Assembly: GCF_041022165.1 (NCBI RefSeq)
Contig: NZ_CP163302.1
Coordinates: 3,534,001 to 3,598,000, forward strand
From: Sinomonas sp. P10A9
GTDB lineage: Bacteria > Actinomycetota > Actinomycetes > Actinomycetales > Micrococcaceae
Length of the DNA: 64,000 bases
Reading direction: 5' to 3'
Translations under genes and position numbers: made by a program
Part shown: positions 8,805-50,074 of the stretch, piece after piece
How the letters are laid out: each line of letters opens with the position of its first letter
Numbering within the stretch: the first letter of the stretch is position 1
Notes under the pieces: model-generated
The model's input: only the letters and a program-made list of their open reading frames with translations
Told to the model about the DNA's origin: nothing
The model's database searches: none

Positions 8805-9677
8805 ATGAATGCTCCCAGCGCCGACGGTCCGGGGCAGGGAGTCTCGGTGGGCTTCGGCGCCCGCCTGCACCCATGGACTCGTTATGTGGCCCTGGGGGAT
8901 TCGTTCACCGAAGGGGTTGGTGACCCAGAACCCCGCAGCCCGGGCGGCCTACGGGGATGGGCGGATCGGGTCGCGGAAGAGCTCAGCGCCGGACACGAGG
9001 ATTTCGCGTATGCGAACCTAGCAGTCCGGAGCCGGCTGCTCCCCCAGATCCTGGACGAGCAGGTGGCCCCGGCCCTGGCACTGCGACCGGATCTGATCAC
9101 TCTCAACGCAGGCGGCAACGATCTGATCTTCCACAGGAGCGATCCCGACAAGCTCGCCGAACGGATGGACGCCGCGGTGGGACTGCTGGGGTCGACTGGG
9201 GCGACGATTGTGCTGTTCGTCGGCCCGGATTGGGGCGCGACGCCCGTGCTGGGGCGGGTTCGCAGCAAGCTGGCCATCTTCAACGAGAACCTGCGCACTA
9301 TCGCGGGGCGCCACGATGCGGTAGTCGCCGACCTCTGGGCGCTGCGCGAGCTCACCCACCCGCTCATGTGGGATCCGGACCGTCTGCACTTCTCTCCGCT
9401 GGGCCAGCACACCATCGCCATCATGGTGCTCGAGACCCTCAACGTCCCCCACACCCTGGAACCAATGTCGCCCAAGGAGCTGCCCCCGCGCAGCTGGCGT
9501 GAGGCAAAGGCAGATGACATCGTCTGGGCCCGCGAGTACCTGGTCCCGTGGGCCCTGCGACGCCTCACAGCACGAATCCCCGCAGAAGAGCCGCACGCCA
9601 AGCGCCCGGTCGCTGGCCCCGTGTTCGGCGCACCGATGCCACCGGGGACGTCAATCGGAAACGATCCGCGGGACTAG
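8805..9677 (+). CDS. SGNH/GDSL hydrolase
   Basis: A 290-residue esterase-type protein. Block I is visible as YVALGDSFTEGVGDP (catalytic Ser), block III as LNAGGNDLIF, and block V as WDPDRLHFSPLGQHTIA with the catalytic Asp and His. No signal peptide is seen, so it is probably cytoplasmic. The C-terminal ~90 residues (PWALRRLTARIPAEEPHAKRP) are typical of the actinobacterial subgroup. Substrate unknown. It stands between the MerR gene and its likely target. Confidence 0.9.
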   Translation: MNAPSADGPGQGVSVGFGARLHPWTRYVALGDSFTEGVGDPEPRSPGGLRGWADRVAEELSAGHEDFAYANLAVRSRLLPQILDEQVAPALALRPDLITLNAGGNDLIFHRSDPDKLAERMDAAVGLLGSTGATIVLFVGPDWGATPVLGRVRSKLAIFNENLRTIAGRHDAVVADLWALRELTHPLMWDPDRLHFSPLGQHTIAIMVLETLNVPHTLEPMSPKELPPRSWREAKADDIVWAREYLVPWALRRLTARIPAEEPHAKRPVAGPVFGAPMPPGTSIGNDPRD

Positions 9678-39525: not shown

Positions 39526-39793
39526 GATCCCCACCGCCTCGGGTGCTGGGCGGCGCCCCTACGGCGCCGATAGTCAAGGATAGGCTCGAAATGTGGGGCC
39601 ATCACCCCCGCAATGTGGGGCGAACGCGGCTTTGGCTGGGGTGCGGCGAGTCCCGGCCAGGCACCTCGACCCGAAGGCGCGGGAGGCCGCCGTCGTGCCT
39701 TGGTCCCGGAGGTGGGCCGACCGTGGACCACGGGCTCTACACCCGCGGGCCCAGCGGCGGTACCGTTACGCCACGAGCGGCGGAAGGACTGTG

Positions 39794-40099
39794 ATGGCAC
39801 GCTTCCTCATCACCTACCACGGCTACCCCTACCCGGACATGGACGTCCTCACCGCCCAGCGGCGCGACTTCCGGGCATGGGCCCAGAAGGCCCTCGGACA
39901 GGCCATGGTGGACTTCGGTGCGCCGGTCTACGACGCCGGGCAAATGTCCACCAAGGGGCCGCCTCTCCCGCCGGTGGAGATCGACGGCTACACGATCATC
40001 GAGGCGCGTTCCGTGTCCGAGGTCCGCGCTCTCCTCGAGGACCACCCGTTCCTCGAACTCGGAGGCACGATCCAGATCAACGCATGCTTCGACGTGTGA
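39794..40099 (+). CDS. YCII-related family protein, copy 1
   Basis: A 101-residue protein, MARFLITYHGYPYPDMDVLT, with MVDFGAPVYDAG and VEIDGYTIIEARSVSEVRAL then LEDHPFLELGGTIQINACFD. The fold is the ferredoxin-like YCII/DGPF type; function unknown, possibly a small-molecule-binding or hydrolase-like domain. A paralogue with about two-thirds identity by eye is at 41819-42121, and even the bases before both starts match (GCGGAAGGAC). Its 3' end overlaps the convergent TetR gene by 23 bp. Confidence 0.82.
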   Translation: MARFLITYHGYPYPDMDVLTAQRRDFRAWAQKALGQAMVDFGAPVYDAGQMSTKGPPLPPVEIDGYTIIEARSVSEVRALLEDHPFLELGGTIQINACFDV

Positions 40100-41559: not shown

Positions 41560-41818
41560 GCCGTCAGGCTCAGACGGCGCCCCGTAGACCACGGTCTGCG
41601 GGGCGCTGCCGTGTCGGGTGTCCTCGGGGCCCGCGCGGAGAGGGCCCGGCTCACCGCGCGGCCGGGCCGCCCGCCGTGGCACCGGCAACCACCACGGACA
41701 CGACCTCGGGATGAGCCCATTCGGCGCGATGGAGGTCCTGCCAACAGCGCGGTGCGGAGCCTACCCGGGCGCCGCGCTGCGGGGGTACCTTTACGGCACG
41801 CACCGCGGAAGGACGGCC

Positions 41819-42121
41819 ATGACACGCTTCCTCATCACCTACCACGGCATGCCGTATCCGGAGACCGACGTCGTCGCCGAGAGCCGGCGCGCCCTGCGTG
41901 CCTGGGCGGATGCAAAGCTCGGCGCCGCGCTCGTCGATTTCGGGGCGCCCGTGCTTCTCGGAGGGCAGCTGTCCGCCGGTCAGGCTACAGATCCGGTCGA
42001 GATCGACGGGTACACGATCATCGAGGCACGCTCACTCTCCGAGGTGCGCGACATCCTCGCCGACCACCCTTATCTGGCGCGCGGCGGGACCCTGCAGATC
42101 AACGAGTGCGTGGCGATGTGA
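41819..42121 (+). CDS. YCII-related family protein, copy 2
   Basis: A 100-residue paralogue of the 39794 gene: MTRFLITYHGMPYPETDVVA, VDFGAPVLLGGQLS, VEIDGYTIIEARSLSEVRDI. The duplication includes about 25 bp of upstream sequence (GGTACC.TTACG.CACG then GCGGAAGGAC). A 260-bp gap precedes it. A secreted subtilase-like gene starts 23 bp downstream. Confidence 0.82.
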   Translation: MTRFLITYHGMPYPETDVVAESRRALRAWADAKLGAALVDFGAPVLLGGQLSAGQATDPVEIDGYTIIEARSLSEVRDILADHPYLARGGTLQINECVAM

Positions 42122-45866: not shown

Positions 45867-45954
45867 AGGTCGGCTGACGACTCGGGCCGAAGCCGCGTCA
45901 GGACGCGGCCGCTTGGTACTACCCGTTGAGGCTCCGGGGCCCTAGTCTGTGCGC

Positions 45955-46710
45955 ATGACGACGGGGCTGCCGTTCGCGGGCAACGGTCTGGTGCATGGCG
46001 TGTTCATGGGACTCGGCATCGCGGCCGCACTCGTCTTCTACGCATTCGAGAAGCGGCGCCGAGGCCTCAGCGACCCTCGGCTGTGGACGCTCGCAGGCTT
46101 TGCCCTCGCCTTCGGGGCCATCGGCTCGCGTATCACGTGGGACCCCACGCGCCCCGTCTCACCGGTGGAATGGTGGGTCGACGGCGACCGCAGCATCCTC
46201 GCCGGGCTGGTCGGGGCCTGGCTCGGCGTGCACCTCGGCAAACGGCTCATCGGGTACCGCATCTCCACCGGGGACCTGTTCGCGCCGTCCGTGGCGCTGG
46301 CCATGTCCATCGGCCGGATCGGGTGCCTGCTCACCGAGCTGCCCGGCACGCCGACGGGCGGGAATTGGGGATTCGTGCTCACCCCTGACCAGGCGGCGAT
46401 GTTCGGTGCCCAGGCCGGGGTGGGGCTCCACCCCTCCTTCGTGTACGAGATCGCTTTCCACGCCGTGGCCTTCACGCTCATGCTCCGGTTCCGGGACCGC
46501 GCGCGTCGCTCGGGCGACCTGTTCGTGTGCTACGTCGCGGCCTACGCGCTGTTCCGCTTCGGCGTCGAGTTTGTGCGGGGCAACGACGAGTTGTGGCTCG
46601 GCATGAGCCGGCCGCAGTGGTTCCTGCTCGCGATGCTGCCGCTGCTCGCGTGGCGCGTGTGGAAGGTGTTCGCCAGCCCTCGGCGCACACCTGAGAGGCA
46701 GGCTGCGTGA
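45955..46710 (+). CDS. Divergent prolipoprotein diacylglyceryl transferase (Lgt)-like membrane protein
   Basis: A 251-residue protein with about seven helices and the Lgt fold pattern. The central signature is MSIGRIGCLLTELPGTPTGG in place of the usual GRIGNF.NGE, and the C-terminal RFGVEFVRGNDELWLG keeps the Arg of the second site. The His-Gly of the first periplasmic loop (SILAGLVGAWLG here) and the Asn after GRIG are not conserved. It may therefore move a lipid group to something other than the usual prolipoprotein cysteine. It overlaps (GTGA) the next gene and opens a six-gene operon containing a radical SAM enzyme. ATG 45955 chosen; a GTG two codons earlier is possible. Confidence 0.82.
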   Translation: MTTGLPFAGNGLVHGVFMGLGIAAALVFYAFEKRRRGLSDPRLWTLAGFALAFGAIGSRITWDPTRPVSPVEWWVDGDRSILAGLVGAWLGVHLGKRLIGYRISTGDLFAPSVALAMSIGRIGCLLTELPGTPTGGNWGFVLTPDQAAMFGAQAGVGLHPSFVYEIAFHAVAFTLMLRFRDRARRSGDLFVCYVAAYALFRFGVEFVRGNDELWLGMSRPQWFLLAMLPLLAWRVWKVFASPRRTPERQAA

Positions 46711-47111
46711 GCGCGAGAAGGCGGCACCGCTGGCGCGACGCGAACCCCAGGCCCGAGAGATTCCCAGGCCTCGGGGAGGAGCCCGGGCGGCAGCGCTCCA
46801 CCGGCGGCAGCGGCAAGCCAGAGCATCGGTTCGACGGTGGGTCCTTCGGTATGGGCATCATCTTGGGCGTCCTTGCGCTCTGGGTGGTCTACCTCGTGAT
46901 CTTCTTCGCTGCCGGGGCGCCATACGCGCGCATCGGGGGCTTTGCGTTCGTCCCGGTAGGCATCTACGCGGCGGCCGCCGTCGTGCTCACGGCGAGGGCG
47001 CGCAGCGTGAGCCTCGGCGGGGGAATGCTGCTGGGCCTCGGCATCTGGCTGCTCATCGGAGGGGGAGCCTGCATCGCGGGCCTCTCCCGGACCGGCGGCG
47101 GGCTCCTGTGA
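46707..47111 (+). CDS. Small three-helix membrane protein, paralogue A
   Basis: A 134-residue protein with a ~45-residue basic/Gly-rich cytoplasmic N-terminus and three hydrophobic helices. Its last helix is GGGMLLGLGIWLLIGGGACI, a motif shared with the next two genes, including the single Cys. GTG start overlaps the Lgt-like stop; its own stop overlaps the next start. Function unknown; the coupling suggests a stoichiometric membrane complex with the Lgt-like protein. Confidence 0.8.
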   Translation: MSARRRHRWRDANPRPERFPGLGEEPGRQRSTGGSGKPEHRFDGGSFGMGIILGVLALWVVYLVIFFAAGAPYARIGGFAFVPVGIYAAAAVVLTARARSVSLGGGMLLGLGIWLLIGGGACIAGLSRTGGGLL

Positions 47112-47464
47112 GCCGTGATCCCGCCGGAACCCCGGAACATCAGCCCTCGGGCAAGGAGCCGCGCCGACGACTGAACCGAGTCCAATTCAGCGCCGGTGCT
47201 ATCGTCGGCGCCATCCTCTTGTACGTCGTTTACTCGATCATGGGGATGGATGCCGTCTTTGCTCAGTTCCAGCCGCCTTACGAATACAAGGCGCTAGGCG
47301 CCGCCGGGGCGGCTCCTGCGCTTCTGTACATAGTGGTCGCGACTGCCTTCACCGTCAGTCACCCGACCAGGGACCTGGGCACAGGAATGCTGCTCGGCGG
47401 AGGGATCTGGTTGCTCCTTGGTGGCGGACCCTGCCTTGCCCAACTGATGTTCGGGCCTCCCTGA
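47108..47464 (+). CDS. Small three-helix membrane protein, paralogue B
   Basis: A 118-residue paralogue of A: a short charged N-terminus (PEHQPSGKEPRRRLNR), three helices and the closing motif TGMLLGGGIWLLLGGGPCLA. GTG start at 47108 overlaps A by 4 bp. The loop between helices 1 and 2 (FAQFQPPYEYKALG) is the most variable part. Not assignable to a known family. Confidence 0.8.
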   Translation: MSRDPAGTPEHQPSGKEPRRRLNRVQFSAGAIVGAILLYVVYSIMGMDAVFAQFQPPYEYKALGAAGAAPALLYIVVATAFTVSHPTRDLGTGMLLGGGIWLLLGGGPCLAQLMFGPP

Positions 47465-47563
47465 GCCAATCATGGAGACACCTCGCCAAGACTCAGGCAT
47501 GAGGCCGTCGTCGGCCAACCACCGAGTTCCCTGCGAAGAGAGCCGCCCGACAGGAGGAGCCGA

Positions 47564-47962
47564 ATGAACGCCAACCCTCCGGACGACGGCGCCGGACCAC
47601 CTCCGCAGGCGCCCCCGCCGCCTCCCCCACCGCCACCCAACGGCTCGCGTGTGCCGGACCGCGGCGGTTCCATGCTGCTTGCCCTCACCCTCGGGCTCCT
47701 GGGCCTCTACATTTTCGGCATCGCGCTCGTCGGGGGCCGAGCAGTGATGCCATACCAGTACACCGGAAGCCCCGTCCCGCTGTGGCTCAGCCTCGGGTTC
47801 TGGGTGCCACTCGTCGTGTACGTCGCGCTCGCAGTGTTCCTCGCCACCCGCCGCAGGACCTCGCTCACCGGGGCTGGCATGCTCATCGCCTTCGGCGTCT
47901 GGGTGCTCCTCGGTGGCGAATTGTGCATCACAGCCATGTTCCGAATGCCGAGCGCGGCATGA
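47564..47962 (+). CDS. Small three-helix membrane protein, paralogue C, with polyproline N-terminus
   Basis: A 132-residue paralogue: the N-terminus has a run of about nine prolines (APPPPPPPPPNG), then three helices ending GAGMLIAFGVWVLLGGELCI. ATG 47564 has AGGAGG upstream. The 100-bp gap from B is the largest in the operon. The proline run could bind a partner or slow translation. Confidence 0.8.
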   Translation: MNANPPDDGAGPPPQAPPPPPPPPPNGSRVPDRGGSMLLALTLGLLGLYIFGIALVGGRAVMPYQYTGSPVPLWLSLGFWVPLVVYVALAVFLATRRRTSLTGAGMLIAFGVWVLLGGELCITAMFRMPSAA

Positions 47963-48011
47963 GTGACCCCGCGATCCGATCTACCGGAGGACCCATGAAG
48001 AGGAGCAGAGT

Positions 48012-49664
48012 ATGAGTCGAACCGTAGCCGGCCGCGCGCCGCTCGGCCCGGGGCAGCCGCTGCGCGGCGACCGGATCCACCGGTATGTCACCGCCTTCTG
48101 CCCGGAGTGCCATCAGGAGAACCCTCCCCTCGCCGAGGTGAGGAGGCTCGCGGGGGCGCTCATGGTGCGGGACGGGCGTGTGTGGCTCGAACGCGGATGC
48201 CCCGACCACGGCCTGGTCCGGACGATGTACGACGAGTCGCCCGAGATCCTCACGTACCTCGAGAAGTGGCAGGCGCCCACCAAGCAGCATGTGCCGGACG
48301 CCGCCGGCAACTACCGCCCGATCCCCGAGGCCTACGCCTACGGACTGCCGGCCATGCAGACCCAGCACACGTGCATCCTCCTGCAGGACGTGATCGAGCA
48401 CTGCAACCTCCGCTGCCCCACGTGCTTCACGGCGTCGGGCCCTCAGCTGCAGGGGGTCGCCCCGCTGGCGGAAGTTCTGGCCAACGTGGACACGCGGCTG
48501 TCCCGCGAGAACGGCCGCATCGATGTGCTCATGCTCTCCGGCGGCGAACCCACGCTCTACCCCTACCTCGAGGAGCTGCTCGACGAGCTCGTGGCGCGGC
48601 CGATCGTGCGGATCATGGTCAACAGCAACGGCGTCCTCATCGCCCACGACGACGGGCTCCTGAACCTCCTCGCCAAGCACCGCGAGCGCGTCGAGGTCTA
48701 CCTCCAGTACGACGGGCCGTCCCGCGAGTCCTCCGTGTACCACCGCGGCGGGGACCTGACCCGCATCAAGGACGCCGCCATCTCGCGGCTTTCCGAGGCC
48801 GGGGTCTTCACGACCCTCACCATGACCGCGACCCTCGGCGTGAACGACGGCGAGATCGGCGACGTCGTGCTCCGCGCCCTCGAGACCCCCTTCATGGGCG
48901 GGGTCGCGCTCCAGCCCGTCTTCGGCTCCGGCCGCGGCCACGGCATCGACTCCATGGACCGGCTCACCCACGGCGGCGTGCTGGCCCGGCTCGAGGAGCA
49001 GACCGGCGGCGCGGTCTCATGGCACGACCTCACCGCCCTTCCGTGCTCGCACCCGCACTGCGCCTCCGTGGGCTACATGCTCAAGGACGACTCCGGCGTG
49101 TGGCGTTCGCTGACCGAGCTCATCGGACACGACCGCCTGCTCCAGTGGCTCGAACTGGACCCGGACAGCATCGCGAACCGCATCGCCGACAGCGCGCTCC
49201 CGCTCGGCCTCCGCTCGATGATGAAGTCCTCCCTGCTCGACCTCCTGAGTGAGCAGTCCTCCCTGTCCCACCCGAGCACCGCGGAGCTGTGGAAGAACAT
49301 CTGCACGCAGTGCGATCTCGGCATCGGCACGCTCACAACGCTGGCGGTGGGCTCGCTCCCGGGGCAGTACCAGCGGCTGCGGAAGCTGCTCGCCGAGCGG
49401 GTCACGCGCATCACGGTCAAGCCGTTCATGGACATCTCGACCATGATCGAGGAGCGGCTCATGCAGTGCTGCGTGCACGTGGGCACGAAGTCGGACGACG
49501 GCGCCCACCAGTGCGCTCCGTTCTGCGCCGTCCAGGCCTGGCCGCAGCTGTCGCGGCAGCGGATGAGCACCGCGACGGGGCACCGCGCCAGCGGCCAGGC
49601 CGCCGGTCTGGGGCTCCCCGTGGTCCGTCACGAGCCGGTCTTCTCGACCCTGGAGACCCCGTGA
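48012..49664 (+). CDS. Radical SAM enzyme of the Tes/MJ0619-like family
   Basis: A 550-residue enzyme. The N-terminal zinc-ribbon-like part has AFCPECHQENPP and RGCPDHGLV. The SAM-cleaving cluster is EHCNLRCPTCFTASGP (C-x3-C-x2-C, about residue 130) followed by VLMLSGGEPTLYP. Later Cys-rich segments LPCSHPHCASVGYML, NICTQCDLG, MQCCVHVG and QCAPFCAVQ are arranged as in the MJ0619 family, now known to include tetraether lipid synthase (Tes) that joins C-H bonds of lipid tails and binds several Fe-S clusters. Databases often call relatives dihydro-hydroxymethylpterin dimethyltransferase. In an operon with an Lgt-like protein, a lipid or envelope substrate is plausible; this is inference. Confidence 0.85.
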   Translation: MSRTVAGRAPLGPGQPLRGDRIHRYVTAFCPECHQENPPLAEVRRLAGALMVRDGRVWLERGCPDHGLVRTMYDESPEILTYLEKWQAPTKQHVPDAAGNYRPIPEAYAYGLPAMQTQHTCILLQDVIEHCNLRCPTCFTASGPQLQGVAPLAEVLANVDTRLSRENGRIDVLMLSGGEPTLYPYLEELLDELVARPIVRIMVNSNGVLIAHDDGLLNLLAKHRERVEVYLQYDGPSRESSVYHRGGDLTRIKDAAISRLSEAGVFTTLTMTATLGVNDGEIGDVVLRALETPFMGGVALQPVFGSGRGHGIDSMDRLTHGGVLARLEEQTGGAVSWHDLTALPCSHPHCASVGYMLKDDSGVWRSLTELIGHDRLLQWLELDPDSIANRIADSALPLGLRSMMKSSLLDLLSEQSSLSHPSTAELWKNICTQCDLGIGTLTTLAVGSLPGQYQRLRKLLAERVTRITVKPFMDISTMIEERLMQCCVHVGTKSDDGAHQCAPFCAVQAWPQLSRQRMSTATGHRASGQAAGLGLPVVRHEPVFSTLETP

Positions 49665-50074
49665 GCGAGCAGGACGAGCGGGCCGCTGCAGCGCGGCGCA
49701 TCGCGGCCGGCCCGACGCCGTCGCGCCTCGTCGGAGCGGGAGGTGCGCAGGCGCCGTCGCCCGCGATCGGCGCGGAAGGCGACCCGCCGGCGTCGTCCGC
49801 GCCCGACACCGCACCGGCGACCGCCGCGCCGTTCGACCCCCTCCGGCTGTGCATCTTCGCGACGATCGCGCTGCTCGGGTGGATCGCAGGGCCGGTGGCG
49901 CTCGTCGTGTTCTCCGGCGTGGGTTTCGCGGGGTACTGGAAGGCGCGGCGGGCCGGGCTCACGCGGTCGAAGTGCTATCTCCGGGACACTCGGCTCGTGC
50001 TCGCGTACCTCGCGGTGCTCACGGCGGCAGGGCTGTGGGGCGTCTACGCGGCGGTGCACTCGCTCATCGCCTGA
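49661..50074 (+). CDS. Small membrane protein closing the radical SAM operon
   Basis: A 137-residue protein starting at GTG 49661, overlapping the radical SAM stop (GTGA). A ~55-residue Ala/Pro-rich segment precedes two or three hydrophobic segments (LCIFATIALLGWIAGPVALVV and LVLAYLAVLTAAGLWGVYAA) separated by KARRAGLTRSKCYLRDTR. No motif recognised, but its coupling to the radical SAM gene marks it as part of the same system. It converges on the GntR gene at 50095 with only 20 bp between. Confidence 0.75.
   Translation: MSEQDERAAAARRIAAGPTPSRLVGAGGAQAPSPAIGAEGDPPASSAPDTAPATAAPFDPLRLCIFATIALLGWIAGPVALVVFSGVGFAGYWKARRAGLTRSKCYLRDTRLVLAYLAVLTAAGLWGVYAAVHSLIA

Follow-up and report, generated by a model that had tools for sequence, protein, structure and literature searches.

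A cassette of genes from four protein families is described here in a 64,000-nucleotide stretch of DNA from Sinomonas sp. P10A9 (the window; C1:3534001-3598000 of a 4.29 Mb genome in a single contig). Its six open reading frames (ORFs), all intact and on the + strand from position 45955 to position 50074 of the window, encode an Lgt-like protein (LGT), three small membrane proteins of one family (S), a radical S-adenosylmethionine (SAM) enzyme with the fold of the archaeal tetraether synthase Tes (rSAM) and a short membrane protein (F). Across relatives these families are kept side by side and come and go as a group, and the cassette is almost certainly one functional unit. Sequence comparison suggests that it could form a membrane lipid- or proteolipid-modifying system; the full chain proposed below, from lipid transfer by LGT to radical chemistry by rSAM, is given in broad outline a probability of about 0.4.

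Conservation of the cassette

Relatives of rSAM are of two kinds: group I, with 52-99% identity, and group II, which are TrsS/Tes-like proteins with about 26-37% identity (44% for one partial match). Two genome sets were searched, one of 118 genomes including that of the host and one of 396 genomes sampled across the phylum. At least 528 stretches with an rSAM relative came from a scan of named genomes; the best 80 of the 528 were read, and all are titled as actinobacteria. Gene content was assessed in 99 non-duplicate loci, 80 of which have 3 kb or more on either side.

Group I rSAM is found in 13 of the 118 genomes, and F and a strong LGT match are found in those identical 13. Within the genus of the window, rSAM, LGT and F are all present in seven of 14 genomes and none of the three is present in the other seven. 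Strong LGT matches (at least 282 bits) in the phylum set occur in exactly the ten genomes that have group I rSAM; F occurs in seven of these ten, G154, G436 and G472 being those without it. A profile from an alignment of S sequences (A4) matched nine of the 13 cassette genomes, together with G004 (52.7 bits) and, weakly, G113 (21.3 bits). Of the 99 loci, 96 contain LGT, 91 contain F and, by the same profile, 75 contain S (80/80, 76/80 and 64/80, respectively, for the well-flanked loci), and pooling of all S profiles gives S in 87/99. The LGT, F and S matches that were kept all lie on the same strand as rSAM, the commonest gene orders being LGT-S-rSAM-F (23 loci) and rSAM-F-LGT-S (16 loci). The 11 group II loci contain neither F nor S and no strong LGT; two of them have LGT matches of 49-58 bits. 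A mirror-tree comparison over 86 loci gave correlations of 0.92 for rSAM/LGT, 0.73 for rSAM/F and 0.72 for LGT/F, values that agree with common descent and equally with a shared species history.

The adjacency of the same families in about 100 non-duplicate loci indicates that the arrangement is more than chance. That the genes are chance neighbours without joint function draws on the general point that adjacency can be accidental; conservation despite changed order, with co-occurrence and absence as a block, refutes this explanation, which can practically be dismissed. An earlier reading of the window from its letters (the sequence-only reading) had taken the genes for a coupled set and proposed a survey of their co-occurrence. 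That survey confirms a conserved unit whose gene families are kept together in relatives.

A natural empty site is present in G004, a genome of the same genus that lacks the cassette and has flanks colinear with locus L093 of Sinomonas atrocyanea. The alignments stop at L173 8399 and L093 5169, the end of a short-chain dehydrogenase/reductase (SDR) gene, and resume at 9220 and 9162, respectively; about 4.0 kb with LGT, rSAM, F and an S gene are missing from G004, which has 820 bases instead. This empty site is a single case. Upstream of the SDR gene G004 retains an S paralogue with a tail (GGEVWLSML) that contains no cysteine, and the corresponding upstream S copies of loci L060 and L093 are likewise Cys-less.

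Additional conserved partner genes were considered and rejected: with rough gene calls, no other neighbouring gene is shared by over nine loci, and the largest neighbour cluster, of nine loci, is clade-specific. Close homologues (>80%) of the SDR gene adjoining the window cassette were found in Sinomonas loci only. An apparent lack of LGT in the Knoellia/Nocardioides/Janibacter clade was also rejected, since genome-wide searches gave a strong LGT in 12/12 genomes (nine from the 14 loci flagged as lacking LGT and three others).

The radical SAM enzyme

The rSAM gene (48012-49664, + strand) encodes 550 residues with matches to the radical SAM family PF04055 and the HMPTM zinc-ribbon family PF23545, and its best named relatives are Sinomonas and Arthrobacter proteins with 93% to 86% identity. 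Tes is the sole solved structure matched by sequence at E ≤ 1e-3 (about 22% identity), and the Tes fold is found over the whole rSAM chain. The sequence-only reading had named close similarity to a non-lipid enzyme as evidence that would count against a lipid role; no such similarity was found, Tes being the one solved structure matched at that threshold.

Tes has a rubredoxin-type site (C9x2C12..C33x2H36; PMC9433317, available part) and an N-terminal [Fe4S4] cluster bound by C73, C77, C80 and a histidine. In an alignment of 97 group I sequences, the radical SAM motif CX3CX2C (C131, C135 and C138) and the rubredoxin-type site (C30, C33, C63 and H66) are present in 97/97, and further cysteines (C121, C345, C350, C431, C434 and C501) in 96 or 97 of 97. 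The C-terminal domain keeps the FMD (472-474) region and the CC...PFC motif, with C486, C487 and C505 in 97/97; this region would be equivalent, by alignment only, to the C-terminal [Fe4S4] site of Tes. All of the motifs named when the Tes cysteine layout was proposed from the letters are present and conserved (15 Cys), but the C-x3-C-x2-C triad of the N-terminal cluster, which is found in Tes and in four aligned group II rows, is missing. The position of Tes Met439 is Met in 89/97 and Gln in 8/97 group I sequences, and that of Tyr459 is Val in 96/97 and Ala in 1/97. Both residues are conserved in 1000 archaeal Tes proteins, and variants of each are still active in vitro.

The score with the NCBIfam model for Tes (NF045702) is 142.6 bits against a cut-off of 450, and that with the model for TrsS (NF045646) is higher, 177.3 bits against a cut-off of 490. 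The earlier description as a Tes-like enzyme therefore stands for the fold; beyond it, the sub-threshold scores, the higher TrsS score, the absent triad and the Val/Ala at Tyr459 speak against a closer identity. rSAM has the Tes fold but is not Tes.

The rSAM of locus L079 (7002-8846) contains an in-frame insert after PCSHPHC in which DLARTRGRGS...GGGGAPPEE occurs twice. In the window, a mini-ORF (MKRSRV; 47995-48015, + strand, six codons and a stop) precedes rSAM. A GGAGG site lies 5' of it, and its stop codon and the rSAM start codon overlap in ATGA, much as other genes of the operon do in GTGA; it is possibly a leader or coupling device.

The Lgt-like protein

LGT (45955-46710, + strand) is a polytopic membrane protein of 251 residues, for which a GTG start at 45949 is also possible. 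It matches PF01790 with 89.5 bits (gathering cut-off 24.9). Elsewhere the genome encodes two more members of the Lgt family, both canonical, which score 217 and 215.5 bits; LGT lies far under the NCBIfam Lgt equivalog cut-offs. A phmmer search against the PDB gave no match at E ≤ 1.

The residues reported as essential in Escherichia coli Lgt are Y26, H103, R143, N146, G154 and R239, of which R143 and R239 position the phosphate of phosphatidylglycerol (PMC13251419, available part). An alignment of 83 LGTs from cassettes (module LGTs) with the host's canonical pair, numbered as in E. coli Lgt, has Y26H and N146C in 83/83, so that the essential Y26 and N146 are not kept. Position 103, where His, Trp, Tyr or Phe would be expected in Lgt, is Leu in 81/83, including the protein of the window, and Ile in 2/83, with Trp in the canonical Lgts of the host. 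R143, E151, G154, Y235, R239, E243 and R246 are unchanged in 83/83. This pattern suggests that the module LGT subfamily retains the lipid-binding site with an altered catalytic surround, and the retention of residues that hold phosphatidylglycerol makes a link to lipid reasonable. The alignment also bears out the earlier observation that the GRIG and EFVR segments are kept and the His-Gly loop and Asn of true Lgt are not.

Two sets of candidates were rejected. Nine LGT matches of 140-155 bits from the phylum search are not module LGTs: in the six of these nine loci that were read, they are housekeeping Lgts with a conserved neighbour order (lspA-like/lgt/rluD-like). In loci L175-L180 the housekeeping-type Lgts have Cys at N146, and in most of those aligned a CC pair follows closely. 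Sinomonas relatives (L069 and L071) seemed to offer another pairing of an Lgt with a radical SAM protein, which was rejected because the Lgts give only 49-58 bits with the module profile; the weak `radical SAM' match of these loci (E 0.001-0.002) is probably a pyridine-nucleotide oxidoreductase, judging by a like gene beside a canonical Lgt.

The S proteins and their cysteine

The S genes A (46707-47111; 134 residues), B (47108-47464; 118 residues) and C (47564-47962; 132 residues, with an alternative GTG start at 47651), all on the + strand, encode proteins of a family with three transmembrane segments. Each has a sole cysteine near the C-terminus: Cys122 in GGGAC-IAGL, Cys109 in GGGPC-LAQL and Cys121 in GGELC-ITAM, respectively. 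Profiles built from A, B and C converge on one family (212, 199 and 194 ORF matches, with 188 to 196 common pairwise), by which the three are paralogues, as had been read from their sequences. No Pfam family was assigned in a scan of 29 members, which gave isolated weak matches only.

Every S-bearing locus (87/87) has at least one copy with a cysteine in its last 34 residues, a new finding here. This cysteine is present in 110/122 S matches (109/120 after the removal of two false matches), the Cys-less copies being extras beside a Cys-bearing copy. Among the 110 Cys-bearing matches, it lies 5-24 residues before the end (median 9.5) and is the single cysteine within the last 100 residues in 83. 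Position -2 is Gly in 103/110 and position +1 is Val, Ile, Ala or Leu in 95/110, the commonest motif being [GA]-G-x-C. The only invariant columns of alignment A4, which was seeded from the better-scoring S copies, are two glycines and this cysteine, and a GxGxxxxxG helix-packing pattern is also present.

An AlphaFold model of a 108-residue piece of protein C (47636-47959) has helices at residues 11-36, 49-72 and 79-102, with the cysteine within the last turns of the third helix. The confidence is low [mean predicted local distance difference test score (pLDDT) 68.3, predicted template modelling score 0.34], and a Foldseek search with this low-confidence model gave no match at E ≤ 10. Lysine and arginine residues per A4 sequence average 1.45 in the N-terminal tail, 0.52 in loop 1, 2.48 in loop 2 and 0.59 in the C-terminal tail, a distribution that places the N-terminal tail and loop 2 inside and the cysteine end outside.

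The number of S copies beside the radical SAM gene varies from one to six matches per locus and the N-terminal tails are variable. Both features would suit peptide maturation, in which the S proteins would be precursors modified directly by rSAM in the manner of a maturase of ribosomally synthesized and post-translationally modified peptides, LGT adding a membrane anchor; this explanation is considered very unlikely. In the Sinomonas locus L060, six S-type matches surround one LGT/rSAM/F set; two are Cys-less, one is weak and one lies some 7 kb away.

The F protein

F (49661-50074, + strand; 137 residues) has a Pro/Ala-rich N-terminal tail followed by DPLRLC (Cys64) and RRxGLxRSKC (Cys105). 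The loop with the SKC sequence is positively charged and hence probably cytoplasmic. A scan of 25 members gave no Pfam family and isolated weak matches only. At E ≤ 1e-3, 2956 of the candidates scored are relatives of F; among 120 listed, those that are named are hypothetical proteins, one of which UniRef also calls `DUF4190 domain-containing'.

Invariant cysteines are seen when each of the three membrane families (LGT, S and F) is aligned. Together with the additional cysteines of rSAM, conserved in 96 or 97 of 97 sequences, they could be taken to indicate that C124 of LGT and the cysteines of S and F make up a metal or disulfide relay in the membrane that serves the oxygen-sensitive rSAM. 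However, the predicted sides of the membrane differ, the S cysteine lying outside and the SKC of F probably in the cytoplasm, and C124 stands at the position of N146, a swap also seen in housekeeping Lgts. Such a relay is quite unlikely.

Proposed function

The cassette probably acts on lipid. In the favoured scheme, the S cysteine would lie at the outer membrane face, as predicted from the charge distribution, where Lgt works. LGT, with His for Tyr26 and Leu for His103, would move a diacylglyceryl or similar lipid from phosphatidylglycerol to this cysteine, and the product would be a membrane protein that carries a lipid and lacks a signal peptide. F would hold rSAM at the inner face, and rSAM would then alter the lipid tail through a Tes-like hydrogen abstraction, coupling or changing an unactivated carbon. 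Tes itself binds phospholipid and couples sp3 carbons (PMC9433317, available part). That S is the lipid acceptor is a tentative proposal. A more specific form of the scheme would be a second bacterial route of protein lipidation, in which LGT lipidates the S cysteine and rSAM, working from the inner face, links the lipid tail to a second chain, so that a membrane-spanning lipid bound to protein results; this form is unlikely. Of the lipid- or lipoprotein-modifying system suggested by the sequence-only reading, the lipid link remains reasonable in view of the LGT residues and the rSAM fold, but the identification with Tes is not supported.

The main alternative is that free lipids are modified and S serves as a scaffold. 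rSAM would then act on ordinary membrane lipids, for example by joining or altering phospholipid tails; LGT would merely bind or present phosphatidylglycerol, and S and F would be structural partners with structural cysteines. The substrates of Tes are free lipids in the account available in PMC9433317, LGT has the phosphate-binding arginines without Y26, H103 and N146, and the GxGxxxxxG pattern of S is one of helix packing. On the other hand, this explanation accounts neither for a Cys-bearing S in 87/87 S loci, with Cys-less copies as extras, nor for the Lgt fold in 80/80 well-flanked loci, and purified Tes is active in vitro without such partners (PMC9433317, same part). Modification of free lipids is possible, if on the unlikely side.

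Several observations weigh against the favoured scheme of lipid transfer to S followed by tail modification. The Y26A, H103A and N146A variants each abolish the function of E. coli Lgt (PMC13251419, available part), so that the cassette LGT may be inactive as a transferase. N146C is also present in housekeeping Lgts of an uncultured actinobacterial family and is for this reason not diagnostic. The Tes N-cluster triad is absent in 97/97 group I sequences, the segment holding one cysteine (C121); with this cluster missing, the chemistry may differ from that of Tes. Confidence in the rSAM model, built with 14 sequences, is low (mean pLDDT 58.8). No S was detected in 12/99 loci, four of which have fewer than 200 bases on one side, and the A4 profile picks it up in only nine of the 13 cassette genomes; F was not detected in the mycobacterium-like loci L073-L075 and in five other loci, of which two are truncated where the contig ends. 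The S motif also differs from the lipobox of lipoprotein precursors, which is [LVI][ASTVI][GAS]C after an N-terminal signal peptide. Its cysteine is C-terminal, position -1 is Leu (28), Ala (22), Val (21), Pro (20) or Ile (14) among the 110 matches, and position -3 is Gly (48) or Ala (33), with only about 20 Leu, Ile or Val. A cut by signal peptidase II at this cysteine would leave almost nothing.

Locus organization

The sequence-only reading of six same-strand genes is borne out, each ORF being intact, and its description of the GTGA overlaps at LGT/A, A/B and rSAM/F is exact. Gene C has its own AGGAGG-type ribosome site. The cassette is flanked upstream by genes for an aldehyde dehydrogenase and the SDR and downstream by a GntR-type regulator, all outside the conserved unit. 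Farther away, the ORFs 39593-40099 and 41618-42121 have at their ends similar stretches starting M[AT]RFLITYHG[YM]PYP; they are likely to be a duplicated gene and lie outside the cassette finding.

Relationship to known systems

The closest structurally characterized relative is Tes, or GDGT-MAS (MJ0619; PDB entries 7tol and 7tom). The N-terminal [Fe4S4] triad belongs to Tes and not to rSAM, whereas rSAM has additional cysteines, Val/Ala at Tyr459 and the partners LGT, S and F. The TrsS (seleno)proteins are its best NCBIfam match: all 14 members scanned (14/14) match this model, with a best E-value that beats that for Tes. Group II Tes-like proteins share C345/C350 in 4/4 aligned rows and C431/C434 in 3/4, and they keep CPxxCGxCxxH; their loci, as noted above, are without F, S or a strong LGT.

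LGT belongs to the same fold family as the prolipoprotein diacylglyceryl transferase Lgt (PDB entries 5azb/5azc) and coexists with canonical-type Lgts rather than replacing them. The available part of PMC13251419 reports Y26H and N146C in MSMEG_5408, a second M. smegmatis Lgt that is presumed to have low activity. Both substitutions are fixed in module LGTs, and Mycolicibacterium commonly has relatives of a cassette LGT; we infer from the reported substitutions that MSMEG_5408 may belong to the module LGT subfamily. The bacterial membrane-spanning lipid synthase Mss, with Ger, is a further system that is close by description: it performs radical coupling of lipid tails with a catalytic architecture said to be Tes-like; the part of PMC13274423 available mentions no Lgt, S or F partners.

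A description of this cassette was not found in searches of open-licence full-text papers, and it is apparently undescribed. In the source annotations LGT is a lipoprotein transferase, rSAM a radical SAM protein or pterin methyltransferase, and F a hypothetical protein. Bacterial relatives of Tes have been used as possible markers of organisms that make membrane-spanning lipids (PMC8941075 and PMC11868695, available parts), a use that one of these accounts describes as lacking experimental confirmation. The cassette shows that a Tes-like gene can have changed metal sites and belong to another kind of system. About a hundred actinobacterial loci among those read bear it, and with it the unexplained extra Lgt of actinobacteria gains a concrete set of partners and a directly testable acceptor, one cysteine. 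If the proposed route were true, common soil actinobacteria would have a membrane-spanning lipid attached to protein.

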